Virus record (IMG/VR): IMGVR_UViG_3300021425_000070
Coordinates: 1-41,263 of that record
Reading direction: 5' to 3' (one strand)
DNA from: a virus
DNA length: 41,263 nt
Made by a program: the position numbers and the translations under genes. The stretch's first letter is position 1. Each line of letters starts with the position of its first letter. The notes beneath the pieces are model-generated. The model ran no database searches. It was given only the letters and a program-made list of their open reading frames with translations, and was not told the DNA's origin. Of the stretch, positions 1,853 to 23,500 are shown piece by piece.

Positions 1853-4800
1853 TTATGATAGGGCGAGAATGAAGGGGGTTACTGTAACGAAGAGCGATCT
1901 TTGGAATGAATCTCCAGACAACGTACCAGTGTTCTGGTTAATCTGTAGACCCTGACCGATTCTAAAGTTACCTAGGTGGTCGGTACTAGTGAAAGCAACT
2001 TTACCACCGTTAAGTTCAACAACCTCTCTTGTCTGAATAGGAACACCACCCCGAGCAGGGATAGCTTCTTGAATCTTAGTTCCAGCTCCTACATATTCCA
2101 TACAATGAGAGTTGGCGATAATCTTAGTTAACTGGAAGAAGTAAACCTCGTCGCCATCATTCAAGGTAAAAGCAATGTTTTCATCAGTTGTGATGGTTGC
2201 TTTACCATCTACCACATCGGTAGAAGTTAGGATACTGTAGTATTGCGGATACATTTCTGGAACCGCTACTGCTCCAACACCGCCACCACCAATTAATTGA
2301 ACGTTAGGTGGATCAATAAACTGAGAACCACTGGAAACAATGGTAATCTCGGTAACTGAACCATTTTCAACGGTAGCAATAGCTTGAGCGGGAATACCGC
2401 TTGGACCTGTTGGAGAATCAATTACAACACTAGGAGAACTGGTGTAACCAGTTCCACCGTCAGTTATATTTATCGTCTGAACAAAGTAATAAGGTTTGCC
2501 GTTATTGCCAATTGTAATTCCCTGACCTACGTATGGTTCTCTTGGAAGATCCTTGAGATTAAACTCAGCGCCAGGAGCTTGTGTTCCATCTACTTTACAA
2601 GTGTATTGTAAAGGTCCAACACCATCAGCGACTAGACCAAAGTTACCAAAGTCAGTGTTGGAGTTTGTAATCGAGCATGTAGAACCAGCAGTTAGATACA
2701 CAGCACGGTCACAACAAATCTCGAAGATAGAAACTAACTGAGTGTATCCTCCGTTGACAATAACAATACCGTCTCCACCTTGGTTGTACTGTGTATAAGA
2801 GTCAAGAACGAAGGAAGCTGTTCCCTCAGCAAGGTTACCATCCACAATCAAACCACTACCTGTAGTAGTTAGAGAGGTACAGTTCTGTACATATGGAGAT
2901 CTAGTAATATTACCAGCAGTTCCAATATAGTATTCGAAGGTTAGTTCTTGATCAGTAAAGTCAGCACCATTAGCAGTGCTTAAAGTAATTACCTTGTCCT
3001 GGATCTTTTGGACAACTGCTGCAGTTGCTACACCATTGCCAAGAACATACATTCTTTCTTTAATACCCTGGGTATTATCGAGGGTAATCTCATAAGATCC
3101 CTTAACACCACTACCGGTCTTAGTGAAGTTATCTCCAATCTTAACTTTGGGGAAAGAACAAGTGTAAGATGGTGCTAGGTGACCCGAGAATGTAACGTTC
3201 GTAATGTATCCACCATTCTCACAGTAGATTAGATTCTTAGTAGGATCATCTGGATAGATGCTAACATCACGGAGGTTATCACCAAAGATACCTGTGTTTG
3301 GAGGTAAGGTAATAGGAGTCTGCTCGGTGTATACACCAGACTTAACAAACACAGTTGTTTTGAAGGATGGTAACTGTGCTGGTACAGAGAAAGGACCATC
3401 GTAAATTAGCATATCTTCAATGATGTTCCAGTAGTTATCAATTGATGATAGAACGTCTTGACAATATGGGTAGTCGAAGTCAGGAATTACTTCTGGATCA
3501 GTGTAAAGTGGTTCGAAACTATACTTGGGTTCATATAGATCATTAGAAGCAGAAACAATCCATTGATTTGCTGCTTTCTTCATGATGTCTCTAGCAGTAC
3601 GATAAGCAAGGATGGACTGCTCTAGTTCGCCATCAATGTAAATCAACTTACCTGTCTTGTTGTCGAAGTAGAAATTGGCAATATCAGTTGTGTTAACGTT
3701 ACCACCAACCTTGAGGTCAGTAGCAATTCCTACAACAATGTATCCAGTATCACGGAAGCATAGTGATTCAGTCTTCTTCCAACCTGTTCTGCCTCTATTT
3801 TCCTTAACTGTATCTAGATAAGCTAGACTCTTATCTGTAAGTACTTTTTCTAGAATAGCGGATAGGTTATCAACAGCATACTGAACATCAACACAAACCT
3901 TGTCAGAACCAGACTTAGTATAATCTCTTGCTACAAAGTTTAGACCATACTCTTCAGGACCACGGAATAGTTCTAAATCTTTAGTGTATAGTTGGTTTGT
4001 AAGAGCTTTCTTTGCCCACTTAGCAGCTGCCTTGAAAGCAACAATAGATTGTACTTCCTCTTCAAAGAGTCCGTTAGGCAAGAAGGTTCCCTCGGTATCA
4101 AAGTATGCTCTGGCAACTGTAATTGTGTGGATGTTACCGCCACAATACAAGTCTTCAGCAATTGCTCTTGCTACATAACCAATATCTCTACGGCACTTGA
4201 CTTCATTTACCCCAGGAGATCCTGCTGATACAGATGGTAGGTTGGTGTTATTTCCATCTGATAAAGTAGTAGTAACGATAGCAACCAAAGCATCAATCTC
4301 TGTTTGAACATCTTGACACTTATTTGGATAAACCTGTCCGTCATCTGTAACGGTAAGGTCTCTCTTATAAAGAACATTTTGAATAGCGTCCTTCATTACT
4401 ACCGCTGCTTTATTGAAAGCGGTGAGCGTCTGAGGAACTTCGGCAGCGATAACATCAATTAAAGCATCTCCTGCTTCGGTTAGATAAGATACAGCAGCTT
4501 CAATACTGCTGGTATTCTTTCTTCCCTTGAGGTCTGCCATTACAGCATCGACAATGAATCCAATATCTCTACGGCATGTCTTACCACCTGGAGTGAGGAG
4601 AGAATCTGTATCTAAGAATACGCCTTCATCTAGACCAGGGAGATTTAATGTGTAATTAACATCAGCAGCTCCAGCAGTAATTTCGTCTACCTTAATGGCG
4701 GTTAGATTGTCAATCAGTGTTCTGACATTAGCACATGATAATGGATCGATATTACTCTTAGTAACAGGATCTGGCGTGAGAGTTAAATCTTTATAATATC

Positions 4801-7800
4801 CTGATAGATCAGCAGTTAGATAAGCAGCACCACCTGCTAGGTCTTCTGTGAATGTAAAGGAATCTTGGTTTGTAATAGATGCCTTCATCAACTCAGCAGC
4901 ACATCTGAATACAAACAGAGACTCTTCAGTAGCACCAGATGGATGGAAAATATTTGGGATAAACTTTCCATCGGCATCAAAATAATATTCTGTGTTATAT
5001 CTAATGTATCTGTTGCCTTGAGTGAAGACATCTAAAGATACAGCATCGATGAAATATCCAGTGTCTCTCTTACACTTATCAATCTGTGTTGATGTTAGGG
5101 CAGTGAAGAAAGCAGCATAGAGTGGGTTAGCAGCAGCAGCATCAAAAGCGTCATCGGTAATGAGTGCCTTGTTATTAATGATAAGGCGATATGAATCGAA
5201 GAATCTGCTGTTAAGTGTAGATGTATCATCACCTTGGAAAACATAATCTGGATGCTCAATAGCAATCTGTGCTAGTGATCTATCTAGGATTTCATTCTTG
5301 TTAAGACCGATTAGATTAGCAGCATCGTCAAAACGATCCTCGCGGAACTTTGTTTCTACTGGTAAGCTATTTAAGTTACCAGCAGTGATGGAATCGGTGA
5401 TGATAGCAGTTAGCGAAGCAATAGATGACTGTACATCTACACAAGAATCTTCATTGCCAGACTCAAGAACAGGTCTGATAACTGTGCCTAAATTACTACC
5501 AGATAAACTTTCATTTGCGCCAGCATTAGTATATGTAAATGTATTAACACCAGTGACAATGATTGTACGATCAGCAGCGTCAAATGCTGTTCCAGTGCCA
5601 ACAATGCTAACAACATCGTTAGTTTCCAAATCATGATCTACAGAAGTGGTGACAGTTGCAACGTTGCTGACTCTATCTAAACCAATAATCTTTTCAGCAA
5701 AAGTAGCAGGACCAGCAGAGATAGTTAAATCTTTGACATATAACTGGTTAGTTACTGCCTTCTGCATCATATCCCTTGCTTTATTAAATCCAGTTACTGA
5801 CTGAGATTCTTCGCCAATTAATCCTGGATAGATGGGGACATCAGGAGTAATGAAATAATTTTGAGCAAGTTTACGAGAGTAAGTATTACCAGCACCTAGG
5901 AAGATATCTAGAGAAATGGCATCCACAAAATAACCAATGTCTCTTCCACACTTAGACTCGTTAGCAACAGGGTTGCCGTAGTTGAGAGGAGTAGCATTTA
6001 AAGTATTATATGCTACTACAGGATCTGTAATTGCTGTGTTGATAGCATCCTTAGTCAAACTAACCAGAGTTTGAATAGTTGCTCTTACATCAGCACAGTT
6101 AGTTGGATCTTGGTTGTTGACTCCGCCGTCATTGAGAATCGTTAGATCTTGCTTGAATAGATTGTTAGTTACTGCTAACTCCATTTGATCAGCAGCTTCT
6201 TGGAAAGCAACTACTGATTCTGCCTCTTCTCCGATGTCATTGTAGACACCACCAGGGAAGTAAGCGAGAGCATTTTGTACAGACTTGATGTTAGCTTCGT
6301 TGTATAGATCAGAAGAAACAGCATCAACTAAGTATCCAATATCACGCTTACACTTACCAGCACCAGCATTGTACTGACCGTTGTTTAGATAAGGTAGAAG
6401 ATCTACATCATCGTTCTCAAACACGTCAACAATCATTGTTACAAGAGAGTCAACTGCCGACTGAACATCAGAACAAGCAGTGGGATCTGTATTAGGAACA
6501 TCGCCACCAGATCCACCAAATACAGTAGGACCTACTACAACAGAAGGATCTGTAAAGAGGTATTGGTTAGAAACAGACAATCTCATTAGATTGCCAGCAA
6601 AGTTCCAAGCAAACACAGATGCTTTTTGCTCTTCGTCACTTAGTTCTGCTAGTCTTACACCATATTCATCAAAGTATTTTAAAGCAAACTCTCTGGAATA
6701 TCTGTTGCCTCTGGTGAAGATATCTAGAGCAACAGCATTGACAAAATAACCAATGTCTCTACGGCACTTAGTTTCGATAGCAGCAAGGTTATCTGCAACC
6801 CCAGCACCAGCATGAAACTCCGGATACTCAGCTGGATTGTTTGTAATTTCTGATGCTGTGTTAGCATAAGTCTCGTTCTGAATGTCTCCAAAATTACCGA
6901 TGATTAAACGATAACCATCATAGTAACGATAGTTTTCTACATTGCTTGCTGGATCACCAGGGAATACAAAGTTTGGATTAGCAATAGCAATTGCTGCTAA
7001 TGCTCTATCAGCAATTTCATTCTTGTTAGCAAATACAAGGTTCGAAGCATCTTGATACTTACCTTGAGGAACATTGTCTACTTCAGGAATAACAGCAAAT
7101 CCACTATCTCTTGAGGCAATCTCAGCACTAAGAACATCTCTTGCTAATGTAATTAAAGTATTGACTGTAGATCTTACATCAGCACAGGAGTTAACGTCTG
7201 TATTTGTGGCAGTATCGCCAGCTTCATTTCCGGCATTGTAAGTTGGGTTTCCGACTTTAATGTTTAAATCTTGATACCATGTCTCGCCATAGCTGGTTGC
7301 TTCTGTGGTTAGTGTGTACGTACCATTAGTTAGAGTAGCAGAAGTTTGGTTACTAATAGCAGCTTCCATGATAGCTTCGATATTATTGAAGCAAATAATA
7401 GTTGCTTGTTCTTCTCCTTCTAATCCGTTTAACTTAAATTCATTGTTTGAATCATAATACTGTAATAGATATTCTCTGGTATAACGTACAGCACTACCCA
7501 AGAACATATCTAAGGAAATAGCATCAACAAAGTATCCTAGGTCACGCTTACATTTATTGGGATTGCCAACAGGACCAGGAGGTGATACCGCCATATCATC
7601 ATAAGCAAGATTAATAATTGTAGTACGGTTCTTTTGAACTAGACGATATGCATCTTTATATCTTGACTGTGGTGTCTCTACAGGATCTCCTGGATAAGAG
7701 AAGTTTGTACCGTCAGCTGCTGTTTCGGAAGTCAAAGCAATCTCAGCAAGAGATGTGTCTACAATCTCTCTACGGTTTTGTTGGATGAGACGATGTGAAT

Positions 7801-10084
7801 CCTTATATCTTGAGAATCTATTTGTTTGATTGTCATTGGGGAAGTAGAAATCAGGATACTCCAAAGCAATCTCGGAGAGTGCTCTGTCCTGAATCTCATC
7901 CATGTTGGCATAGATTAAGTTTCTGGCATCTTTCCATCTACCAGACTCAGCAGGAGAATCTGGGAATACGAAACGGTTGTTGCTAGTTCTAGTAATGCCA
8001 TCTAAGTTACCAACACCACCAGCATCAGTTCCGATTGCTTGGAAGTAAATCTCGGAAAGAGACCAGATAGCAGAGGCAACGTCATAGCATCCTTTGCCGT
8101 ACTCTGTCGCTACAGGTGGTGTTGTTCTAGTAATACCAGTAATATCTCCAGCACCACTAGTGTCATCACCGACACCAAGGAGGACAAGTTCGAATAGGTT
8201 AGCAATGGTAAATCCAATGTCAGAACATCCTTCTCCATATGCTACAGCGGGAGTTGGCTCTGTTCTGGGGACAGCAATAGAACCAGCACCATTTAACTCA
8301 TCAATGCCATCCCAAACCGCTCCAATGACAATTTGCATTAGAGAGTCAATAGTTGAAGCAACAACAGCACAATCAGGATCGGCAAGATCTGGTTGGATAT
8401 CTGGATTGATTGCTTGGGTGAATGTATTGTTAGTTCCGCTTACTGGAGTAACAGCAATATTTCTCATCACATCGATTGCTACTAAAGAAGCATATTCAAA
8501 TACCTTAGCAGCTTCTTCTCTTTCCTCATTTTGTAGAGTTGTAACAGGGGTTCCTGGTGGGAACTCTCCAGTTACATAAACGTTAGCAGCATCATATACT
8601 CTGTCGTTGCCGCCATAGACTAAGTTATATTGAATAGCGGAAAGAATATCTTTTACGTCATCAATACAATCTTGTGGTGTAGTACCAGCGCCAACAGGTG
8701 CAAATCCGGGGAAGTCAACCAACATACGGTCATATGCTTCGGCGGCAATGAAGTCTTTGTTTGCTTCGATTGTTCTGTAAGCATCTGCCTCATTGTTACC
8801 AATAAGAGCAAGAGGATCTAAGATAATCTTATCGCTAATATACTGAGTAAATCCATGAGTACCAACAATCTCAGCAGAAATATCTCTCTGTCCAATAATA
8901 TCCCAGATTAGATATTGTGCCTCAAGGAAAGCATACTTGGTTTCATCACGCTCATCATCAATAATATCTCCAACATTTACACCTTCGAAAATACTTGTAG
9001 AGTATACGTTAGCAGCATCATATGTTTTATCGTTGCCACCGTAGAGCATATTGTATTTGATAACTTCGATGACATCTTTAATATCATCAATACAATCTGC
9101 TTCTGTAGTTCCAGCAGGAGGTGTGTGAGAAAGATCAGCTGCCATTCTGGCATATGCTTCAGCAGCAATCAACTCTAAGTTTTTGTCAATTAGTAGAGCA
9201 GCATCCCATGCCTTTGAGTTCTCTACTGCTAAAGGATCCAGAATAACTCCTTGTTTGAAAACTGGAGTAAGACCATGAGTTCCTACAATAACAATATTAG
9301 GATCATGTCTCATTACCTCCATCATCAGATAAGCAGCTTTCTGATAGATGATTTGAGATTCATCTCTCTCGCCATCAATCGTGGTAGTAAAGTTAATGTA
9401 GTATTCAGCAAAATCATATACCCTGTTGTTGCCATCATACTTGACGTTAAATGCTACAGCATCAACAAACAACTTAACATCATCAATACACTCTTGATCA
9501 CCATTTGGAATAGTAAATAGTGGATCTACTGCTAAGATGTCAACAAGTCCTCTTGCTACTGCTTCGGCAGCGATAAAATCTTTATTAGCAATGATATCAT
9601 CGTAGGCATCAATCCATCTGTTGCCTCTGGCATAATCTTTGTTCTCGGATAGAAGTGTTCCTACAACTTCATCTTGAATGAGTTTTTTGTTTAGAAGAAT
9701 GTTATTAGCAGCGTCACATAGTTTACCGTTAAATCCTCTTTGTGCTGCTCTTAAAGCTGACCCAATGGATGCCTTTGCTGTCTCCTGACTTAAACCATCA
9801 TTAGTATCATCACCGTCTTTCGATACCCATAAAACGTTCTCAATAGAAAGAGATTTCCAAATAATCTTTCCATCTCTAGTTTTCTTTAGAAACTGACCTT
9901 CTTCACCAACATTTCCTTCAGAATCTTCAATCGCTGCTGGAACAATCGCTTGATCAACACGTAATCTATCAATTGGTGTTACACCAGTCGAAATATCAAA
10001 TAGATCTTTAGCTGTCTCATTGATCTTTACCCTTTGCTGCTCAAAGGTGTCTGATCTAAAAACTTCCTTACGATTAATTGCCAT
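1853..10084 (-). CDS. Giant virion structural / tail fibre protein with split beta-helix and helical repeats (2,743 aa)
   Basis: Residues 1-80 are an attachment-like head (EGQFLKKTRDGKIIWKSL). Residues 86-112 (LWVSKDGDDTNDG... then SIGSAL) are the usual opening of a phage pectate-lyase-like beta-helix. The expected continuation (VFVKSGVYTEQTPI..., NTGIFGDNLRDVSIYP) appears only at about residue 2246. Between them lie about 2,100 residues of predicted helical repeats. One type has the core C-x-x-D-(I/L/T)-G-Y-x-V-D-A (11 copies counted by eye); the other has C-A-D-V-(R/Q)-S-x-(V/I)-x-x-L (11 copies). The end carries a GxGYTSSPSV-type beta module and a conserved-looking tail (STDHLGNFRIGQG... 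then TPFILAL). The start overlaps the end of the upstream 66-aa gene by 11 bp. It lies in the T4 gp9-gp11 region, but I see no direct similarity to those proteins. A role in the baseplate rim or fibre is inferred. Confidence 0.88.
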   Translation of the reverse strand: MAINRKEVFRSDTFEQQRVKINETAKDLFDISTGVTPIDRLRVDQAIVPAAIEDSEGNVGEEGQFLKKTRDGKIIWKSLSIENVLWVSKDGDDTNDGLSQETAKASIGSALRAAQRGFNGKLCDAANNILLNKKLIQDEVVGTLLSENKDYARGNRWIDAYDDIIANKDFIAAEAVARGLVDILAVDPLFTIPNGDQECIDDVKLFVDAVAFNVKYDGNNRVYDFAEYYINFTTTIDGERDESQIIYQKAAYLMMEVMRHDPNIVIVGTHGLTPVFKQGVILDPLAVENSKAWDAALLIDKNLELIAAEAYARMAADLSHTPPAGTTEADCIDDIKDVIEVIKYNMLYGGNDKTYDAANVYSTSIFEGVNVGDIIDDERDETKYAFLEAQYLIWDIIGQRDISAEIVGTHGFTQYISDKIILDPLALIGNNEADAYRTIEANKDFIAAEAYDRMLVDFPGFAPVGAGTTPQDCIDDVKDILSAIQYNLVYGGNDRVYDAANVYVTGEFPPGTPVTTLQNEEREEAAKVFEYASLVAIDVMRNIAVTPVSGTNNTFTQAINPDIQPDLADPDCAVVASTIDSLMQIVIGAVWDGIDELNGAGSIAVPRTEPTPAVAYGEGCSDIGFTIANLFELVLLGVGDDTSGAGDITGITRTTPPVATEYGKGCYDVASAIWSLSEIYFQAIGTDAGGVGNLDGITRTSNNRFVFPDSPAESGRWKDARNLIYANMDEIQDRALSEIALEYPDFYFPNDNQTNRFSRYKDSHRLIQQNRREIVDTSLAEIALTSETAADGTNFSYPGDPVETPQSRYKDAYRLVQKNRTTIINLAYDDMAVSPPGPVGNPNKCKRDLGYFVDAISLDMFLGSAVRYTREYLLQYYDSNNEFKLNGLEGEEQATIICFNNIEAIMEAAISNQTSATLTNGTYTLTTEATSYGETWYQDLNIKVGNPTYNAGNEAGDTATNTDVNSCADVRSTVNTLITLARDVLSAEIASRDSGFAVIPEVDNVPQGKYQDASNLVFANKNEIADRALAAIAIANPNFVFPGDPASNVENYRYYDGYRLIIGNFGDIQNETYANTASEITNNPAEYPEFHAGAGVADNLAAIETKCRRDIGYFVNAVALDIFTRGNRYSREFALKYFDEYGVRLAELSDEEQKASVFAWNFAGNLMRLSVSNQYLFTDPSVVVGPTVFGGSGGDVPNTDPTACSDVQSAVDSLVTMIVDVFENDDVDLLPYLNNGQYNAGAGKCKRDIGYLVDAVSSDLYNEANIKSVQNALAYFPGGVYNDIGEEAESVVAFQEAADQMELAVTNNLFKQDLTILNDGGVNNQDPTNCADVRATIQTLVSLTKDAINTAITDPVVAYNTLNATPLNYGNPVANESKCGRDIGYFVDAISLDIFLGAGNTYSRKLAQNYFITPDVPIYPGLIGEESQSVTGFNKARDMMQKAVTNQLYVKDLTISAGPATFAEKIIGLDRVSNVATVTTSVDHDLETNDVVSIVGTGTAFDAADRTIIVTGVNTFTYTNAGANESLSGSNLGTVIRPVLESGNEDSCVDVQSSIASLTAIITDSITAGNLNSLPVETKFREDRFDDAANLIGLNKNEILDRSLAQIAIEHPDYVFQGDDTSTLNSRFFDSYRLIINNKALITDDAFDAAAANPLYAAFFTALTSTQIDKCKRDTGYFIDAVSLDVFTQGNRYIRYNTEYYFDADGKFIPNIFHPSGATEESLFVFRCAAELMKASITNQDSFTFTEDLAGGAAYLTADLSGYYKDLTLTPDPVTKSNIDPLSCANVRTLIDNLTAIKVDEITAGAADVNYTLNLPGLDEGVFLDTDSLLTPGGKTCRRDIGFIVDAVMADLKGRKNTSSIEAAVSYLTEAGDALIDVIAAEVPQTLTAFNKAAVVMKDAIQNVLYKRDLTVTDDGQVYPNKCQDVQTEIDALVAIVTTTLSDGNNTNLPSVSAGSPGVNEVKCRRDIGYVARAIAEDLYCGGNIHTITVARAYFDTEGTFLPNGLFEEEVQSIVAFKAAAKWAKKALTNQLYTKDLELFRGPEEYGLNFVARDYTKSGSDKVCVDVQYAVDNLSAILEKVLTDKSLAYLDTVKENRGRTGWKKTESLCFRDTGYIVVGIATDLKVGGNVNTTDIANFYFDNKTGKLIYIDGELEQSILAYRTARDIMKKAANQWIVSASNDLYEPKYSFEPLYTDPEVIPDFDYPYCQDVLSSIDNYWNIIEDMLIYDGPFSVPAQLPSFKTTVFVKSGVYTEQTPITLPPNTGIFGDNLRDVSIYPDDPTKNLIYCENGGYITNVTFSGHLAPSYTCSFPKVKIGDNFTKTGSGVKGSYEITLDNTQGIKERMYVLGNGVATAAVVQKIQDKVITLSTANGADFTDQELTFEYYIGTAGNITRSPYVQNCTSLTTTGSGLIVDGNLAEGTASFVLDSYTQYNQGGDGIVIVNGGYTQLVSIFEICCDRAVYLTAGSTCSITNSNTDFGNFGLVADGVGPLQYTCKVDGTQAPGAEFNLKDLPREPYVGQGITIGNNGKPYYFVQTINITDGGTGYTSSPSVVIDSPTGPSGIPAQAIATVENGSVTEITIVSSGSQFIDPPNVQLIGGGGVGAVAVPEMYPQYYSILTSTDVVDGKATITTDENIAFTLNDGDEVYFFQLTKIIANSHCMEYVGAGTKIQEAIPARGGVPIQTREVVELNGGKVAFTSTDHLGNFRIGQGLQINQNTGTLSGDSFQRSLFVTVTPFILALS

Positions 10085-10275: not shown

Positions 10276-13200
10276 TTAGTAAGAAGCTACTGCTCTTAGA
10301 TCTTGTACTTTAGGTGGATACGCTGGATCGTCAGTCTTCATGACAATCTTAATGGCATAAGAAGAGAACTCTGCCAAGTTACTTACCGTATATACAAATT
10401 CTTGGTAAGATGATTGTGATTCATAATTACCAGAAATTGTATTTGTTGTAGTAGCAAGATCATCATTATCTGGATTTCCATCTACATTAAATGGAACCCA
10501 GTTAAGATCATCAAAGTTTTCTTGACTTGAAGATTTCTTAGTCTTGTAGTAAACTTTAATGTCTTCGGTATCAACAACATTTGCTGTGATTCTGGTGTCA
10601 ATAGCTGTTGCTGGACTATTGATGAATACCTCTTTGGTTACATACTTAGCAGCAGCAGAACTATTCTTGGAACTTGTCTCTGCCACGTAGTCTACGCCAT
10701 CAGCAAAGGTCATTTGACCAACAGTTAAGTATCTGTCATCTAGAGACTTGATAACATCTCCTTTTCTAAAGATATCCTGTCCTTGTTCTGAAGCATCTGC
10801 CTTTCTAACAAAAGCGCTACCAGCAGTAATTTCACTAGTAAAGTCATCGTTTAATGGGGTGTAAGGACTGTCAACAATTAAAACTTTATCCTTAGAATCC
10901 CATTCAACAACCTTACCATTAATAACATTATCATAAGAAACGGTGAGGTCTAAAGGATAGTAAGCAACAACTGTGCTTCCTTCGCTAAAATCAAAATTAA
11001 GTTCTTCTGTTAATTGGATAGAGATAGAAGCAGAAGTAATCGTTTCGCCTGATGGTAGTACAGCAGTAATAGATTCTCCTACAATAAAGTTAGAAGTGGT
11101 AGAAAGATTTACAACGGCAACAGATGTTCCATCCCATTCAATAATCGAACCAATAGCACCAGAGGTTTGACCAGATAATACAGATCCTTCGATAATATCA
11201 TCAGGTGTGCCAATAATAAGAAGAGTTAATTGATATGTTGGTAAGAACTTAATTTCCTGATACTTCTTACCGTATCTTTTCTCTTGTCCAGTAGCATTTT
11301 CTACTCTGTTAGAAACAAGTTTTACAGAAGCTGTATTCAAGTCAATAACAGGAGATAGAGAAGACTTGCTAGAGCTCAAATTAAGTGTATACTCTAGAGA
11401 ATTATTAATTCCATTTAAAGTCTCGTTGATTCTAGATGCAACTACTTTCTGATTAGTGAAATAGTGTTGCTCATTTAAGAAAGTCTTCTCATACACACTT
11501 TCCTGATAGGAAAGATAATTTTGTGTATTGGAATCTACAGGAACGATATTAGTTGTCTTGACATTTGCTTCGATATTTGTATTCTCTACTTGAATGTAAG
11601 GAATCTGAGCAAATAGTTTCTCATACTTTCTGTTGTATGTGGCAAGAACTCTAGATCCTCCCCCGATAACATTAGATCCCGCTCTGCTAGGACTTGTAAT
11701 AGTGTAAGTATCAATACCAACCGAGTCAACTTTGAATAGTTCTCCTTCCAGAGTTACACTTGGAATTCCTCCTACGTCTTCTGTGTTGGTAAAGTATACA
11801 TAAGAATTTCCTAAATCTTCAAAACCATTGTCTCTGTGAGTTAATTTAACAATTGCGTTGTTACCTTTAAACAATGAAGATGTGGCATTTACTGGTGATC
11901 TTACGCTAGTCTCAAATGGAGAAGCATCTAGAAGCTCATAACCTAAATTCTCATTCGTTAGTTTTAGTTCTCCGACGCCATCGGTATAGAATTCTGCTCT
12001 ATAAAGAGTAAACTTAAGATCTTCAAATAGATCTTCTGACCAAACATCAGTGTTTTGTGATTTATAAAGAGATCCAAGCGAAGGTTGTGTTGTTACAGAA
12101 ACGTTGGAAGTAACCTCTTGCTCTCCTAGTTTAGAAGACCACAATTCATAATCAATTGAATCTGTTTCAATTGTCAAAGCATACTCAGTATTGTTTCTTA
12201 GATAAACAGGATGCTTAAACTTAAATCTAGAAGGAGTAACCGAATTAGATGCAGATAAGGCAGAATCAGTAGCAACTCCCATAATAACGGCAGGAGTATC
12301 AATCTCGATAACAGAATCGATAACAGCTCCTGCTGCTCCTGTTCCAATTCCTTTGATAACAACTGAAGGTGCTTCTGTATATCCACTACCGTTCAATACC
12401 AGCTCGGTGTTATAAACCTGACCATTTGAAACTTTGATATTTGCCGAAGCAATACTTCCGCCGGGAAGCTGTGGACTTTCGATGGTGATAGAAGCGCCGT
12501 TATATTTTTCTCCGACATTTCTGATCTTAAGATCAACAACTCTACCGGAATCTTTGGCAATAACTAAAGAAGCTTGCTTGTTATTAACAGCATTATAATT
12601 AGTAACGGAGGGAAGTTCTAATCCTTCATCAGCAAGGAACGAAGAACCATTATGGTTGTCTAGAACTAATGTGTAAGTTTGATCTTTGCTCAGTGTAAAT
12701 GTTGTGCTTAATTCATCCCCGAGAGAAATACCATTCTTATCTAGAACATCTTTTAGAGGTCCAATAGCACCAGATAGTAATCCAGTAATATTTTCTCCTT
12801 TGGTGATAGTAATACTGTCTACATTTCCGGTGAGGAATGACTTTAATTTTGTTTGGGAATATAAAGTGGATACTGTACCAGGAATAATGTACTTGCCAGG
12901 AACTCCAGACTCTGTATTTGTTAGATAAACTCTAATGGGAACTTCATCACTCTTCTTGGAGAAATATAAGTCTACACCAGTAGCAAATACACCTTCTTCG
13001 AAGTTCTCGATTTTAAAGGTCTGTGCTAAAGGATTTGGTTTAACTGGATTATCGGTATTGCTATCTCCTAGTTGTACACCTTCATTTGCTTTGAAGTAAG
13101 AAACTCCCGTAGTAACAATACTCTGGGGATTTCTTGGTATAATACCTGTGGCATAGAAGTTAACTTCACTGTAGGTATCTAATTCATCCTTAGCTTCATT

Positions 13201-16200
13201 TGTAGCACTGGAAGTAAAGATGATAGTCTTAGATCCTTCGGTGAATCTTACTTCTTCGGAAACTTCATCATATAAAACAGTCTTCACATCTCCAGTCCAC
13301 TTGGTATTAAGTAGAGGAGCGTATCCCGCAGGGATTAAGATAATACCACTTAAGCTACCACTGGAATCCGTAACTAACTCATTACCGAAAGTTGTCAACG
13401 AGTTACCAGCAATTCCTGTATAGATCTTATCAGGGACAACCCAACGTCCAATATCTCTGCCTTCCATATAGACATAGATCTTGGTATTAGACTTCAATCT
13501 ATTAATAGTAAATTTAACAGGGATAGATCTAGCAAAGAATTGAATTCCTGTCGAAACGGATTTACCATTAACGATTTTTGAATTTACTCCTTTGCCTAGC
13601 TCATTGTTTTGTGGACTAATGTTAGAAGAGCTAGAAATACTAGCAGCAGAAGTCGAAGAAACAATTTCTTGTGAATTTATTTCTGATAGAGATTGAATAT
13701 TAAATAGAGACTTATCTGTACCAATCCAATTTACAATAAATGAATCAGCAAGAGATGCTAGTGATTCTTTCGGATTATCCTTAGCTAGTAAGATTGAATT
13801 TAGTTTAGTATTTGTATCAACAACTAGTGGTTCAATAGAGGTATCATACCATTGATCAACTGTTGGTGATAAAGCAACATCTCCGACATATTGAATAACA
13901 ACAAATGGATTTGGATTAATAGTACCAGTAGCGTTATTATTGCCAAGTAGATCTACATCAGTAAATGGAAGTGTGACAATGCCATTGTTATTGACGTATC
14001 CAGATAGAACTCTTTGATCTTGTCTTGTATTAACTTCTTTCAAGAGGAAGTTATCTTCTTTTGTTTGTGGTCTGAGAACAGATTGCTGAGAATCAATACC
14101 ACATTGATAATCTAGAGAAGTTAAATTGCCAACAGAGTGTGCCTCGAAAGCATCTACAATAAATCCAGATTTAAATCTATCAAGACCAACATCATCTTTG
14201 ATCTGCATATTTAATGCTTGCTGCTCTAAGATGCTTAGTGTTGTATAAAACTCCAGTCTTTCAATACGCTTCTCTAGTTTACCGATATCTCTCATCGTGT
14301 AACGCTTATTGTCAACACTAATGATTCTTACATCCTTCGAAGTAGCAGTAAAAGCAGGGATGTGTAGATATCCAATAGCAATAGCATCATCAATCATTTC
14401 TGGTTTAGAAGGATTGAGAGAAGGATTTCCTTTCTTAATAAGAACATCTCCTTTCTTAGATAAGAAAACGGCATCCATTCTATCCAAGTATTGCTTCTCG
14501 GTAAATTGGAATGTGTATTCTAGATTCTTATCTGGAGCTGGCGTTAGAGTAGGAATACCAGAGGAACCTGTGAAGCTTGCTCCGGCACCAGCATCAGTCA
14601 AGATAGAAGTATCCTGGAATCCAGTAATTGTAGAACTGTCGTCAACTTTAGGTCTAAAATCAATTACATCTTTTAGATTTACGGTTCCGTATACAGAGGA
14701 ATTGAAATTAGGAATATCACTAGCAGGTACACCTGCCTGATGTACATAAGAGTCAACTGTAGAGAAGTCTCCTAAAGAGTGCTCAAAATAATCAAAGGCA
14801 ATTAGTAACTGACCAGTTGGTGGTTCAAATCCTGGTTTTAGTACAATTCTAGAAACATCATAGAAAGTATCTCTTTGTCCATTATCAAAAGTATACTTGT
14901 ATGTAATATCAGTACCATTTACCAATACACCATCAGCATCAGCTTCGGGTGGATTAGTAGAAGTTCCTTCATAAACATATCTTAGTTTATAAACATCAGA
15001 ATAAGTTAAAACTTCAATAGTATTTTCGTCATAATCTGTTCCTCTTAGAGGAATCACTCTATCGCCACTGGAGATTACATTAATTCTCTTGTTAGTGATA
15101 GATGTCTTTAGTCTTGGTCTTGCCTTGTCAATCTCAATAGTAGCTGTTAACTTGAGTTTAGGGAAGACAGTTAATTGACCTTGACCAGGACCATTAAAAT
15201 AATCATTTGGTAAGGAGATAATTAATGATCCTGATGTTACAGTAGTATCTGTAATTGATCCCGAATTGATATCAACATACTCGGGTGGAATATAGACAAT
15301 ATCTCCTGTATCTACAGCAGTAGAATCTCCGGCATCTAGTACTGTTACAATGAAATTCTCTTCATTGTACCTAGCAAATCTTTGTGTTCCGGAAGTTAGC
15401 TGAGCACTGAAGGTAATAGTAGCACCGCTAGCAGCAAGATCAGTAACAAAATCTTTTCTGATAAAATATTTAAACTTAGTATCGGATGTGTCATTAACCA
15501 AAGAAGCTACTTGCTTACTGCCAGTTGGGAAGATAAGACTAGACTTAGCAGCATTTTCAATAATAGGTCTTACTTTTACAACAGTAGCATTAGTTACATT
15601 TGAACCTAAAGTATAATCTAAATAAATTCTAGACTTAACAACTCCTTCCGAATCAGTAATTGTTTGTACGATGTTCTTAATTGTAACTCCGGAATCATCA
15701 GTATATTGAATCAAATCACCAGGAAGTAATTCTCTTGTTAGGTCTGTAGCAAATCCGTTACAAGTAAGATATTTTCTTCCGCTTTCTCCAGAGAAAGTAA
15801 AGGACGTAATCTGAGTGGAAGTAGAATACAATGCCGACGAGGTATCAATATCAGCTGAGAACTTATAGTTATCGTATGTAGAACTAAAAGATTTTACTTG
15901 CTGATTAGAGTAGTCAAGAACAGTATTTTTATTTAATACTGCTGTAACTCTCGCTCTAGTTGACTCTCCGGTATCTGGGGTAAATGTGATTGTTGGAGGA
16001 GATACGTATTGTTCTTGTACCGAATTTGAGTTGATAATATCAACGGCATAAATCTCACCACCAAAAACTTTTGCTTCGATTACGGAAGAATCATACTCTC
16101 TTCCGTTAATTACAATCTTTGCTCTACTTGATCCAACATCTGTGTATCCACCGCCTTTATAGTTAACGATGAAGTGGGAAATAGTGTTCTCGGCAGAAAT

Positions 16201-18357
16201 CTTTGCTGTATTTCCTGCTTCGTCAATAATTGTTTCTCCTGGCTTGAATTTACCAGACAATGTTGTTACAAATAAATTCTTACCAAATGTATAATTTAAA
16301 GTAGGATCTGACTCGATTACACCGTAAGCTTTACTGTTACGTCCTACGATATACTTGCCTGGTTGGAAACCGGTCTGTGGAGCAGTATCTAATTTAATCT
16401 TTGTGAAGAATCTTGGATTAAAATACGAGAATGCAAAAGTAGCATCGTAAGGAGAAGATCCATCTGCTGCTCTTCCTTTAGAGAGAATCTTATCAAGGTC
16501 TGGGTTAAATCCATTAGCTCTTTTGACAAGACTAAAGTTCTTTGGTTTTGCTACACCAATAACTGGATGAAGGGTTTCGTTATAGTCAGCAACAAATCCA
16601 TATGGATCATTATTAAAAGCATCCGCTTCTGTCTGCCACAAGTATCTTAACTTTGTAGGAGCGTTATCATCATACTCTTTCAAATATGTTTCTAAAAGTG
16701 ACTTCTTACCCAGTACAGTATACTCAACATATACTTGAGCAGACGATGGATTTACTTCGGTTCTATTTACAATAGAAGTAGCAATTACATCTACAGAATC
16801 AACAGTTGTAATTACTCCGCTATTAATAGTTTTGGAGAACCATAACTTAGTGGGGAAATCATCATCTAGTGTAGGAATAACGTCCAGAAGCTGTACATAG
16901 ATTGTTTTAATTCCTAGATCAAGACCGAACTCTTCAGATCTTCTTGCTAAAGTATTCTTGAAGTATCCATCTTCTTCTCCGCCATTTAAACCAATAGTTC
17001 CATCATTAAAAACAGAGTTAAGATAAATGGTTGGATATGAAGTAATTTCGCCCCCAATAGTATTTAAAGGAAGAGAACCAAATACATTAGTAATCTTATA
17101 ATTTGCTAAACCTGTAGTTTTGAGAGTTCTATTTTCTCTTGTAATAGTATCTCTTGCTTTATCTACAACAACAGTTGTATTGGATTTGTTTACAATTTCG
17201 TATCCTCTAACATAAGCTTTACCCGATCCAATGTTTAGGATCATCTTACTATCTGCTTCTGCTTCGGTGAGACCGTTTACAGTTCCATCGGTAGTTTTAC
17301 GGTAAAGACCAGAGTTTCCATTTCTCTGGAAATATTCTCTAATATCGAGAGTAAAATTATCTACGACATAATCACCAGACTCATCGTATGTTCTTCTCGC
17401 TAAAGTATCTTCTAATACAGAATATTCTGTTGGTTTTACTTCTCTTTCAACTACACCTTGATTAATTTTTAATAGTTGAACAAAGTTAGAATCAGTTTTT
17501 GCTGTATATCCAACTTTAACTAAGTCTAAGACAATTTGTAGTCTATGTGCTCCTGGAGCAGATTGGTTTGAATATCCTCTTGCATTATCAAACAGAGAAG
17601 CATCTTCCTCTGGTGTAACAAGACTTTCTACAATATTAAAACCAACCTTAGCAGAAGGCTTACTTGAATATTTTTCAATAACTAAAATACTTTTTTCATT
17701 CTGTACAAAGAATCCATTGATAAAATAAATTCCTTTTTCTACTTCGACGGCACTTCCGTAACCTAGTGCTCCACTAGATTCTACGGTAACGTTTCCTGTA
17801 ACAGGATCTTCTACTTCAATAAATGTTGGGAGAACGCTTCCATCTACACCAATAACTAAAGTAGGAGTATTAACTCCGTTAACTACTTCTAAAGTTTCAC
17901 CTTGCCTAAATGACCTTTCATTATTATCATTTCCACTACTTGTGTAGTTTACAAATAATGTATTTGACTCTGTTGTAGAAGCATACGAAGCTTCTACAAC
18001 AGTAGCAATAACGCCAGAAGAAATACCTCTTAATTGAGATCCAATCAAGAGTTTAATATCATACGTTTGATACACAACAGTACCATCTTCCTGAGCAACC
18101 CCAACCTCAGAAACAGATGATAGTTTTACATAATCTAATTTTGTATTAAGACCTACTTCACCAGGAATTACCTGCTGACCTTGCTTGAAAGAATATTTTC
18201 CTAGACTCTCAATTTGACTTTGTAAAATTGATTGAAGAGTAGTTAACTCTCTAGACTGAATAGAATAACCCGGTCTAAAAAGAACTTTATAGAAATTCTT
18301 ATCTCTATCAAAGTCATCAAAATACGGAGTCGCATTAATGTTTGTCTTCTGTGGCAT
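10276..18357 (-). CDS. Giant baseplate/virion structural protein, DUF4815 family (2,693 aa)
   Basis: The N terminus (PYFDDFDRDKNFYKVLFRPG, then SIQSRELTTLQSILQSQIE) is what I recognise as DUF4815, known from baseplate-associated phage proteins. A conserved region near residues 1300-1400 contains EKQYLDRMDAVFLSKKGD and then a charged helix (RDIGKLEKRIERLEFYTTLS) likely to form a coiled coil. Residues about 740-800 and 1930-1980 hold GGGYT/GSGYTEAPSV beta modules shared with neighbouring giants. A later segment (TGVDLYFSKKSDEVPIRVYL) looks like a jelly-roll or carbohydrate-binding-like beta domain, though this is not certain. It lies directly after gp8 and its terminator, in the T4 gp9-gp10 region. 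A baseplate rim or fibre-attachment role is inferred. No frameshift or internal stop was seen. Confidence 0.88.
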   Translation of the reverse strand: MPQKTNINATPYFDDFDRDKNFYKVLFRPGYSIQSRELTTLQSILQSQIESLGKYSFKQGQQVIPGEVGLNTKLDYVKLSSVSEVGVAQEDGTVVYQTYDIKLLIGSQLRGISSGVIATVVEASYASTTESNTLFVNYTSSGNDNNERSFRQGETLEVVNGVNTPTLVIGVDGSVLPTFIEVEDPVTGNVTVESSGALGYGSAVEVEKGIYFINGFFVQNEKSILVIEKYSSKPSAKVGFNIVESLVTPEEDASLFDNARGYSNQSAPGAHRLQIVLDLVKVGYTAKTDSNFVQLLKINQGVVEREVKPTEYSVLEDTLARRTYDESGDYVVDNFTLDIREYFQRNGNSGLYRKTTDGTVNGLTEAEADSKMILNIGSGKAYVRGYEIVNKSNTTVVVDKARDTITRENRTLKTTGLANYKITNVFGSLPLNTIGGEITSYPTIYLNSVFNDGTIGLNGGEEDGYFKNTLARRSEEFGLDLGIKTIYVQLLDVIPTLDDDFPTKLWFSKTINSGVITTVDSVDVIATSIVNRTEVNPSSAQVYVEYTVLGKKSLLETYLKEYDDNAPTKLRYLWQTEADAFNNDPYGFVADYNETLHPVIGVAKPKNFSLVKRANGFNPDLDKILSKGRAADGSSPYDATFAFSYFNPRFFTKIKLDTAPQTGFQPGKYIVGRNSKAYGVIESDPTLNYTFGKNLFVTTLSGKFKPGETIIDEAGNTAKISAENTISHFIVNYKGGGYTDVGSSRAKIVINGREYDSSVIEAKVFGGEIYAVDIINSNSVQEQYVSPPTITFTPDTGESTRARVTAVLNKNTVLDYSNQQVKSFSSTYDNYKFSADIDTSSALYSTSTQITSFTFSGESGRKYLTCNGFATDLTRELLPGDLIQYTDDSGVTIKNIVQTITDSEGVVKSRIYLDYTLGSNVTNATVVKVRPIIENAAKSSLIFPTGSKQVASLVNDTSDTKFKYFIRKDFVTDLAASGATITFSAQLTSGTQRFARYNEENFIVTVLDAGDSTAVDTGDIVYIPPEYVDINSGSITDTTVTSGSLIISLPNDYFNGPGQGQLTVFPKLKLTATIEIDKARPRLKTSITNKRINVISSGDRVIPLRGTDYDENTIEVLTYSDVYKLRYVYEGTSTNPPEADADGVLVNGTDITYKYTFDNGQRDTFYDVSRIVLKPGFEPPTGQLLIAFDYFEHSLGDFSTVDSYVHQAGVPASDIPNFNSSVYGTVNLKDVIDFRPKVDDSSTITGFQDTSILTDAGAGASFTGSSGIPTLTPAPDKNLEYTFQFTEKQYLDRMDAVFLSKKGDVLIKKGNPSLNPSKPEMIDDAIAIGYLHIPAFTATSKDVRIISVDNKRYTMRDIGKLEKRIERLEFYTTLSILEQQALNMQIKDDVGLDRFKSGFIVDAFEAHSVGNLTSLDYQCGIDSQQSVLRPQTKEDNFLLKEVNTRQDQRVLSGYVNNNGIVTLPFTDVDLLGNNNATGTINPNPFVVIQYVGDVALSPTVDQWYDTSIEPLVVDTNTKLNSILLAKDNPKESLASLADSFIVNWIGTDKSLFNIQSLSEINSQEIVSSTSAASISSSSNISPQNNELGKGVNSKIVNGKSVSTGIQFFARSIPVKFTINRLKSNTKIYVYMEGRDIGRWVVPDKIYTGIAGNSLTTFGNELVTDSSGSLSGIILIPAGYAPLLNTKWTGDVKTVLYDEVSEEVRFTEGSKTIIFTSSATNEAKDELDTYSEVNFYATGIIPRNPQSIVTTGVSYFKANEGVQLGDSNTDNPVKPNPLAQTFKIENFEEGVFATGVDLYFSKKSDEVPIRVYLTNTESGVPGKYIIPGTVSTLYSQTKLKSFLTGNVDSITITKGENITGLLSGAIGPLKDVLDKNGISLGDELSTTFTLSKDQTYTLVLDNHNGSSFLADEGLELPSVTNYNAVNNKQASLVIAKDSGRVVDLKIRNVGEKYNGASITIESPQLPGGSIASANIKVSNGQVYNTELVLNGSGYTEAPSVVIKGIGTGAAGAVIDSVIEIDTPAVIMGVATDSALSASNSVTPSRFKFKHPVYLRNNTEYALTIETDSIDYELWSSKLGEQEVTSNVSVTTQPSLGSLYKSQNTDVWSEDLFEDLKFTLYRAEFYTDGVGELKLTNENLGYELLDASPFETSVRSPVNATSSLFKGNNAIVKLTHRDNGFEDLGNSYVYFTNTEDVGGIPSVTLEGELFKVDSVGIDTYTITSPSRAGSNVIGGGSRVLATYNRKYEKLFAQIPYIQVENTNIEANVKTTNIVPVDSNTQNYLSYQESVYEKTFLNEQHYFTNQKVVASRINETLNGINNSLEYTLNLSSSKSSLSPVIDLNTASVKLVSNRVENATGQEKRYGKKYQEIKFLPTYQLTLLIIGTPDDIIEGSVLSGQTSGAIGSIIEWDGTSVAVVNLSTTSNFIVGESITAVLPSGETITSASISIQLTEELNFDFSEGSTVVAYYPLDLTVSYDNVINGKVVEWDSKDKVLIVDSPYTPLNDDFTSEITAGSAFVRKADASEQGQDIFRKGDVIKSLDDRYLTVGQMTFADGVDYVAETSSKNSSAAAKYVTKEVFINSPATAIDTRITANVVDTEDIKVYYKTKKSSSQENFDDLNWVPFNVDGNPDNDDLATTTNTISGNYESQSSYQEFVYTVSNLAEFSSYAIKIVMKTDDPAYPPKVQDLRAVASY

Positions 18358-20564: not shown

Positions 20565-23500
20565 TTAACCAATGGTTCTTACATAAATTGACTGGTCAAT
20601 ACCGTCTCCTGGAATCTCAGCTGGGATAATGTGATCAACTTCGGAACTTCTGACACCCCTTGTAACACCAGTGAATGTGTTTCCAGAAATTCCAGTATAA
20701 GTAACTTCTTCAAGATTTCCATTGGTCTCATTACCAATCAATAATGTTCCTGATGTTGGCCATAGAGAGTTTGGACCATCTAGAACAGTAGAGACTGTAA
20801 TTGTAGTTTCTCCAATCAATAGATTAGATTGTAGTTTTGTTCCTAATTCGTTGATTGATGGGAATCCAAGGTTAAATGGTTCATTCTCTACGTTAAGACT
20901 TGAATCTAGTCTAGAGACGAAGTTTTCAATTTGCTCGGAACCAAGTAGTTCAAATAGTGAACCATTAATGTTTAGAGAACCATTAGAAACAAAGGCATTT
21001 TCCTGGAACATTTTAAACGTCATTCCTAGTGTGGTTCCTAGATACTTGCTATCAGGAACGAACGAATCAGCAATACCAGTTACAAATTCACTTACTCTCT
21101 TAACTTCAGCTTCTAGGGTGAGAGATTCTAGATCCTTATCATTTCTATGGAAGACAACTGTTTCTGTCTTGTCAGTCTCAAAGGTGACGATAAATTCATC
21201 CAACCAGAAGTATCTGGTGTTATTGTATCTAAAGTCAACTGTTTCAAGTCTGTTCTGAATTTCGATGTCTTCTTTTCTGACAATTTCACGCTTAACAGCA
21301 ATGATACCACCATCGTTGACGCTAACAAACTCAGTGAAGACTGCTGGATCCTCAAGGAAGAATGTCTTGGGAAGCTCGGATTTCTTGACGTAATCATTGA
21401 AGTTAGTAATGATACTAACCATTCCGGTGTCGCCATAGAAACCTTCGGTTGGATCTGGGGTATCGCCAAGGAGATGCTGGTTAGGATAGAATCTAGTAAT
21501 ATCCTTTCTGACAGTGTAGTCAGTGTAGCTGATTCTGATCGTGTTGTAACGATCAAGAGTTTCAATTTCAACGTTGACGATAGAAACATCAACTTCACTG
21601 AGGAACTCAACGAATAGTGGTGGATCGGGAGTTGGGGATTCTGGATCTGGGATTTCATCCAAGTTAATAAAGACTTGACCAGACATTGTGGCAAATCCAT
21701 AGAAACCTTCTGTTGGATCTGGATCACCATTGTCAAGTAGATGCTCGTTAGGATAGAAGCGTGTAACTTCTTTAACAATCTCAAAGTCTGGATAATCTCT
21801 CTGGATTTGATCTTCTTTTCTTCTCCAGAATTCAACATTAGTTTCATTGCCAGCTAAAGGAGTATCTAAAGACCAAGGTTCTAGAGTAACAGGATCTCTC
21901 ATTACATAACCCTCACGGGTTACGGAACCACCAGACCAGTGATACTTGTACTTAAACGCTTCGGTTTGATCAACAGTAGTGATCGAAGTAGAAGCAATTG
22001 CTCGGACCCAAACATTATTATCAGAATCAAATTCTAATGTAGGAGCTACTACGGCAAATTGTTCAGCAGAATCTGGAGAAAGAGCAAAAGCGTAGAAATT
22101 ACCTTGTGCTTCATTAATTGGTTGATCAGCAAGGATGAAAGTTCTGATATCAATTACAGAATCAACAAAAGGTTCTGGTTGAAGTTCTCTTCTCTGCCAG
22201 AAGTTACCCTTAGTTAAATCACTAACTGAAGGAGTATCGAAAGACCAGTTCCTGAACTGGAAGACTTCAGTCTCATCCCAAATTACTGCTTCAGCAGGAT
22301 TTTTACTTGCTACAACATATTCACCATTTACACGTATTAGTGGGAGGTGTAGTTGATTTCTTGTGTTAGATTGTAGTTCTGTGCCAGCATTTGTCTCATA
22401 TCTAATGGTAAAGATAGACTTATCTTCAATATCAACGAGGAGAGGACCTACTAGATCACTGAATACTTCACCACCAATAATAGTAACATTCTCGACAGGA
22501 TTAATAATTGAGGTAATAAATCCTCTATCAAAGTTCTTGGTTATTCCTGTACCAGCATTTGTATAGAACTTATCATAGATGCGGGAATATTTGTATTCAG
22601 CAGATTTTACCGAATCAATAATGCTTCCTCTCCAGAGTTGAGTAACTCCAGTAAATACTGGTTCTACGAAGTAAACAGTAAGAGTCTCTGGAGATTCTGG
22701 ACCTTCGAAGTAGACTCCTTCAATATTAACAAGAGCTTCTGGTTGAAGAATTAGAGTAATAAATCCTCTATCGAAATTCTTAGTTAGTTCAGTGCCAGCT
22801 TGTGGAGACTCTAGAGATGTTGGGGTTGGATCTCCCTGAGCATAAAGCATTACACCACCCTGAAGGTCTCTAGATCCACCAGACCACCAGTTCTTAATTA
22901 AATTAATTTCTGATTCTTGGAAAGATACTGGAACAGTGCCTGGTTTAGCAACATATTCCCCGTTAACTAACTCTAGACTTGGGTGGAATCTTGTCGCTAG
23001 ATTAGAAACCTGACTGTTGAAGATTCCTTGTTCTTGATATTCAAATCTATTGTTAAATGTGACCTTAGCAATTTCATAATCAATTTCATTCCAGACGTTC
23101 TTAGTCCGGAAGCTTTGATCTGAAGTAACGCTAATATCATAAACAACAGTTTCAGGTCTGATGATAAGAGTAATCTGCTCGGATTCAATGTCTACTGCCG
23201 AAACATTAGCGTCAAATCTCCAAGTGATGATGCTCTTATCTTCAACATCTACAACTACAACATCAAGACCATCGTAAATAAACTCAGCGCCAACAATAGT
23301 GACATTCTCAACTGGAGAAATAATTGAGGTAATAAATCCTCTATCGAAGCTTCTGGATAGTTCAGTGCCAACTTCAAGGTCCTCTGGTCTGATGATTACA
23401 GTATGTTTCTGTTCTACAAGAACTACAGAATCAAGGAATCTATCATATTCAATGAGATTAACAAGTTTAGAATCAGTGTCTGTAATTAGAGTATCAACAA

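Follow-up and report, generated by a model that had tools for sequence, protein, structure and literature searches.

Nested phycobiliprotein-like modules in the split, probable beta-helix of a giant cyanophage tail fibre

The window, that is, the whole stretch of 41,263 nucleotides of viral DNA analysed here (IMG/VR record IMGVR_UViG_3300021425_000070), carries a large gene whose 2743-residue product is covered over much of its length by the PHROG 4527 'short tail fiber protein' profile. Profile searches also located the baseplate genes gp25, gp6 and gp8, the gp6 product being 57% identical to those of Synechococcus phages, and a Kyanoviridae-specific protein is encoded in the window as well. 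Judged by its family-profile match and its baseplate-gene neighbourhood, the 2743-residue protein is the tail fibre of a T4-like cyanophage. Family, modules and genomic setting are common to the PHROG 4527 fibres of S-PM2 (p091) and S-RSM4 (SRSM4_214), from which the window protein differs in having all of its 11 modules in one beta-helix loop, including a three-deep nest. Three other frames lie on the minus strand: an adjoining one cut by the contig end (1-1488), which contains collagen triple-helix repeats (PF01391, E=5e-50) and encodes a second fibre-like protein; one of 2693 residues (10276-18357) with DUF4815 (PF16075) and a match to PHROG 358; and one of 4615 residues (20565-34412), encoding a giant virion protein that has a YHYH domain and matches a baseplate wedge weakly.

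The fibre is divided by a long insert made of helical units of two types, named E (C-x-x-D-x-G-Y) and V (C-A-D-V). The motif WVSKDGDDTNDG is found at residue ~86, and VFVKSGVYTEQTPI picks up again at ~2243. Fetched viral loci were searched with two queries, the first 122 residues of the fibre and its C-terminal part, and in four natural homologues (L099, L114, L125 and L130) the residues matching 117 and 2243 of the query are immediate neighbours, the uninterrupted junction in L099 being VYVSKYGNDENSGRTEGDAKLTIGAAAAVANPGDTIYIRSGVYAENNPIG; the insert is therefore defined as residues 118-2242. A further locus, L088, has a shorter array at the identical insertion site, and single E-V modules stand in different loops of the same beta-helix domain in L125 and L130, so that insertion has proceeded by whole modules. 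From these comparisons the split between residues 117 and 2243 is taken as established. The sequence-only reading had placed the opening and the continuation of a beta-helix on either side of a helical arm duplicated within one loop, and had proposed comparison with homologues lacking the array as a check; the direct junctions, and the single modules in other loops of L125 and L130, support this arrangement. It had named separate domains for the terminal segments, or unconserved cysteines, as findings that would refute it; both checks went in its favour, the two halves being contiguous in the homologues and the cysteine being retained in 22/22 units of the window.

The beta-helix nature of the domain is likely, given the motif, the first turn and the homologue profile, which over the opening weakly matches the start of the GH120 xylosidase 3vst (E=0.003); Pfam gave no match. 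The opening WVSKDGDDTNDG...VFVKSGVYTE is that of homologues without interruption and resembles right-handed beta-helix fibres and tailspikes, whereas in the window protein 2,125 residues stand between the opening and the first turn.

Profiles derived from homologues located 11 E units (Cys 199, 331, 473, 845, 1107, 1245, 1379, 1671, 1837, 1964 and 2109) and 11 V units (Cys 572, 620, 666, 967, 1204, 1330, 1548, 1784, 1923, 2064 and 2208), in the order EEEVVV followed by eight EV, which gives the array EEEVVVEVEVEVEVEVEVEVEV (Table 1). These are exactly the numbers and the order described from the sequence alone, as is the near-universal cysteine. Against the family profile the E-values are 1e-16 to 1e-34 for single E units and 4e-279 for the protein as a whole, a repeat signal far above chance. 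The CIDD and CxRDxGY 'types' of the C-x-x-D unit belong to one family. Five lone helix-B half-units precede some of the modules, and 5/8 of the alternating modules miss their own helix B.

Table 1. Features of the tail-fibre gene, in the order of the protein
Feature	Residues	Position	Strand	Basis
Tail-fibre gene	2743 aa	1853-10084	-	match to PHROG 4527, E~0
N-terminal region up to beta-helix opening	1-117	9734-10084	-	joined to C-terminal part in L099, L114, L125, L130
Insert of 11 E-V modules	118-2242	3359-9733	-	homologue comparison and unit profiles
Lone helix-B half-unit	123-152	9629-9718	-	profile match
E unit 1, CIDD, opens outer bracket	156-260	9305-9619	-	profile match
E unit 2, CIDD	292-398	8891-9211	-	profile match
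E unit 3, CIDD; best Phycobilisome match (PF00502 best stretch 428-494)	433-542	8459-8788	-	profile match
V unit 1, closes E3	568-594	8303-8383	-	profile match
V unit 2, closes E2	619-653	8126-8230	-	profile match
V unit 3, closes E1	665-699	7988-8092	-	profile match
Lone helix-B half-unit		7823-7939	-	profile match
Lone helix-B half-unit		7721-7810	-	profile match
Module 4	E 808-913, V 961-988	7121-7663	-	profile match
Lone helix-B half-unit		6953-7060	-	profile match
Module 5	E 1053-1174, V 1198-1232	6389-6928	-	profile match
Module 6, truncated E	E 1239-1308, V 1324-1353	6026-6370	-	profile match
Module 7, truncated E, extra ~90 residues between E and V	E 1358-1447, V 1546-1578	5351-6013	-	profile match
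Extra residues of module 7	1448-1545	5450-5743	-	
Lone helix-B half-unit		5222-5335	-	profile match
Module 8 (1627-1815 modelled by AlphaFold2)	E 1627-1740, V 1778-1808	4661-5206	-	profile match, model
Module 9, truncated E	E 1827-1903, V 1920-1952	4229-4606	-	profile match
Module 10, truncated E	E 1947-2031, V 2060-2094	3803-4246	-	profile match
Module 11, truncated E	E 2088-2173, V 2202-2233	3386-3823	-	profile match
Resumed beta-helix and C-terminal fibre domain	2243-2743	1856-3358	-	homologue contiguity; PHROG 17885 tail fiber

The Pfam family Phycobilisome (PF00502) matches the fibre with 40.5 bits, the curated cut-off being 22.2; several units match it independently, and it is found in 21 of 25 related viral contigs at E<=10, four of which exceed the cut-off. 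In profile-profile comparison the phage family is matched to phycocyanins over helices B and E (probability 95.7%, P = 8.6e-9), reversed-profile controls giving 0.3-0.5%. When PDB sequences were searched with an E-V profile, only phycobiliproteins appeared among the 60 matches listed (best 7.5e-6). Structure prediction of fragments, also proposed at the outset, was done with AlphaFold2 for the E and V of module 8 (pLDDT 95.5, pTM 0.92) and for one E unit (pLDDT 93.9). For both models every one of the best 50 Foldseek matches in the PDB was a phycobiliprotein or an engineered derivative of one (prob 0.94-1.00), with modest E-values, about 0.015 and up, and the case for the fold is therefore based on this uniformity and on the sequence profiles rather than on those E-values. 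The E-V model could be aligned with beta subunits over 176-185 columns (TM about 0.5-0.6), which puts V where helix H is.

It might be argued that helical bundles with cysteines have converged on this form with no shared ancestry, since the sequence similarity lies mostly in helices B and E and the Foldseek E-values are weak. This is very improbable in view of the profile-profile match with its null controls, the curated Pfam match, the unanimous fold matches and the motif K-C-x-R-D-I-G-Y held in common. Sequence profiles and models together establish the E-V modules as homologues of phycobiliproteins, with a predicted globin-like fold of that family. Helices X and Y of phycobiliproteins serve alpha-beta pairing. 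The similarity to phycocyanin starts at helix A/B (residue ~36) and these two N-terminal helices are absent, so the phage domain is classed as a family homologue and not as a phycobiliprotein proper. It shares helices B and E by sequence and the overall fold by model with phycocyanin and phycoerythrin subunits, together with the Cys84 and Asp87 positions and probably those of Cys155 and Asp39; in contrast to them it is split, nested and repeated in one giant virion protein, and its bilin is putative. Among the papers searched, none assigns phycobiliprotein domains to structural proteins of phages; databases may contain automatic annotations of this kind.

The order of the units follows a bracket grammar. 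Perfect balance is seen in 41 of the 57 arrays read from viral contigs, and most of the others begin at a contig end; EEEEEVVVVV and EEEEEEVVEEVVVVVV are examples. In independently fetched named phages the V count is never above the E count anywhere along the array, and 11/15 complete frames with >=2 units are balanced, the others being one detectable V short. Serial (first-in-first-out) pairing was rejected, nested pairing explaining the co-variation of E and V better in 30/38 related arrays, including every five-deep array; the scores for the window itself, 0.238 nested and 0.261 serial, do not discriminate. Independent repeats are ruled out by the balance of the brackets and by the folding of the E-V model as one phycobiliprotein-like domain, and a relationship between V and E was also discarded, the profile comparison being negative. 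On this evidence from sequences and models, it is established that an E and a V together make up one domain, each contributing a half, and that modules are nested like brackets. Each module is a split domain that takes helices B, E, F and G from E and helix H from V, and the simplest reading is that whole modules have entered other modules in the gap from E to V. The sequence-only reading was right about helical units of two types, both of which are present; the homology with phycobiliproteins and the union of E and V in one nested domain had escaped it. In module 7, ~90 residues of beta-rich appearance lie between E and V, which suggests that this gap takes unrelated inserts too.

Asp87 and Asp39 are bilin ligands in phycobiliprotein structures. 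The cysteine and aspartate of the E units align with the bilin-binding Cys84 and Asp87, and conservation across the phage family, with as many as 387 different sequences in a column, is 94% for the Cys84-like, 98% for the Asp87-like, 96% for the Asp39-like and 99.7% for the Asn47-like position. In the window the Cys84-like residue, the Asp87-like residue and the V cysteine are each present in 11/11 units, and the Asp39-like and Asn47-like residues in 6/6 E units having helix B. The truncated modules, 5/11, have no helix B and miss these last two positions, which was counted against the binding of bilin. Two further points against it are that Asp takes the place of Arg86 in 3/11 units of the window and in about half of the family's full-length units, and that helices X and Y are missing. 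The V cysteine is probably at the Cys155 position. A forced global profile alignment places it on Cys153/155 of beta subunits, as does a second, weak stretch found by HMMER; the local score is low. T-type lyases put bilin on Cys153/155 (PMC10452541).

The modules could instead be a structural spacer, a captured phycobiliprotein fold serving as a stiff and expandable arm, in which the cysteines serve packing, metal binding or disulfides between chains, and bilin is absent. The tandem architecture fits a rod, and the five window modules without helix B still keep their Cys and Asp. On the other hand, the Asp87-, Cys84- and Cys155-like positions are 94-98% kept in modules that often share no more than 20-50% identity, and the cysteine losses are uncoupled: 331 modules of the phage family keep both, 10 only that of V, 13 only that of E and 1 neither, which is evidence against an obligate E-V disulfide. 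The disulfide cross-linking suggested earlier is thus not supported as an obligate pair, and the two cysteines correspond to bilin sites that are separate from each other; disulfides between chains are possible.

Using one E unit as query, 297 of 50,697 phage records were matched, all of them Synechococcus or Prochlorococcus phages, and an HMM search found no modules in T4, pelagiphage HTVC008M, podovirus P-SSP7, siphovirus P-SS2 or Microcystis phage Ma-LMM01; the restriction to cyanophages is established within the phage collection. This restriction, and the location of modules in loops of the fibre beta-helix, would also suit receptor-binding or mimicry domains directed to the host surface or to a phycobiliprotein partner, the homology serving for binding and not for colour. 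Nevertheless, phycobilisomes are cytoplasmic and are absent from Prochlorococcus (PMC2984593), whose phages retain modules, and the most invariant positions include those of the bilin site, not of the surface; such a function is improbable.

The partner proposed for the modules is the T-type lyase CpeT/CpcT (PF06206, including phage phiCpeT, PDB 5hi8), which is the product of a separate gene; its natural target is Cys155 of beta subunits, and its action on the fibre is hypothetical. In work by Gasper from 2017, purified phiCpeT reportedly failed to transfer bilin to a host beta subunit. Among 26 T4-like cyanophages, classified by HMM searches, a Syn19 E-unit match and the published cpeT table (PMC3037559), 21 have modules and cpeT, 1 modules only, 0 cpeT only and 4 neither (p = 3e-4; like the p values that follow, this overstates independence because the phages compared are related). 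With HMM searches alone (25 phages) the counts are 18, 3, 0 and 4 (p = 0.003), and in the 15 phages of Table 3 of PMC3037559 whose module status is known, cpeT agrees with it throughout if the HMM-found Syn1 copy is counted (p = 0.002), the other genes of that table giving p of 0.08 or more. The cpeT gene lies about 1-4 kb upstream of the giant module-bearing gene in S-RSM4, S-MbCM7, S-PM2, Syn1, S-WAM2 and S-H9-2. CpeS lyase is absent from 22/22 phages tested.

That CpeT presence follows the modules is a further point against a mere spacer, whereas the E-bearing S-SKS1, in which an HMM search detected a module and no CpeT, favours it, as do pebS and ho1, which do not follow the modules and were rejected as their partners. 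P-SSM2 and S-SSM7 encode pebS and ho1 but no cpeT (PMC3037559 Table 3) and have no modules, so the fibre modules leave the bilin-synthesis genes of phages unexplained. Taken together, a purely structural arm is a serious, if somewhat doubtful, explanation. There is nearly an even chance that the fibre carries an 11-module phycobiliprotein-like arm with bilin attached by CpeT or host lyases, the response to light being the weakest part.

This bilin-bearing model starts from what sequences and predicted structures show: the first loop of the fibre beta-helix holds a long arm, whose 11 modules are homologues of phycobiliproteins. During assembly in the host, phage CpeT, or host lyases, would attach bilin at the Cys84-like position of E and the Cys155-like position of V, so that the virion fibre would become a biliprotein. 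Attachment of bilin to the fibre is likely though putative, with the phage CpeT as candidate loader, and the retained pigment-binding cysteines suggest a pigment on the fibre that could link infection to light. More weakly, the bilins might make fibre deployment or receptor binding light-responsive, which would agree with the light-dependent adsorption known in some cyanomyoviruses. Several marine cyanomyoviruses have been reported to adsorb in this manner (PMC2984593). Adsorption of P-HM2 in the dark is near zero, whereas that of P-SSP7 is not light-dependent (PMC7112961). P-HM2 has modules and P-SSP7 none, a correlation of two phages that is only a lead, and light sensing or light-dependent adsorption through the fibre is speculative.

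Nesting of whole domains, up to five or more deep, is an unusual way of making a fibre. Light-dependent adsorption of cyanophages is still without a mechanism and the role of phage-encoded cpeT and bilin genes has been described as unresolved (PMC3037559); the modules, with their conserved cysteines, are a candidate substrate for CpeT. The fullest form of the proposal, in which the virion fibre is a biliprotein, CpeT loads dozens of cysteines with bilin and adsorption is gated by a pigmented, light-sensing arm, is rather unlikely; if true, such a fibre would account both for the light-dependent adsorption of cyanomyoviruses and for their carriage of cpeT.
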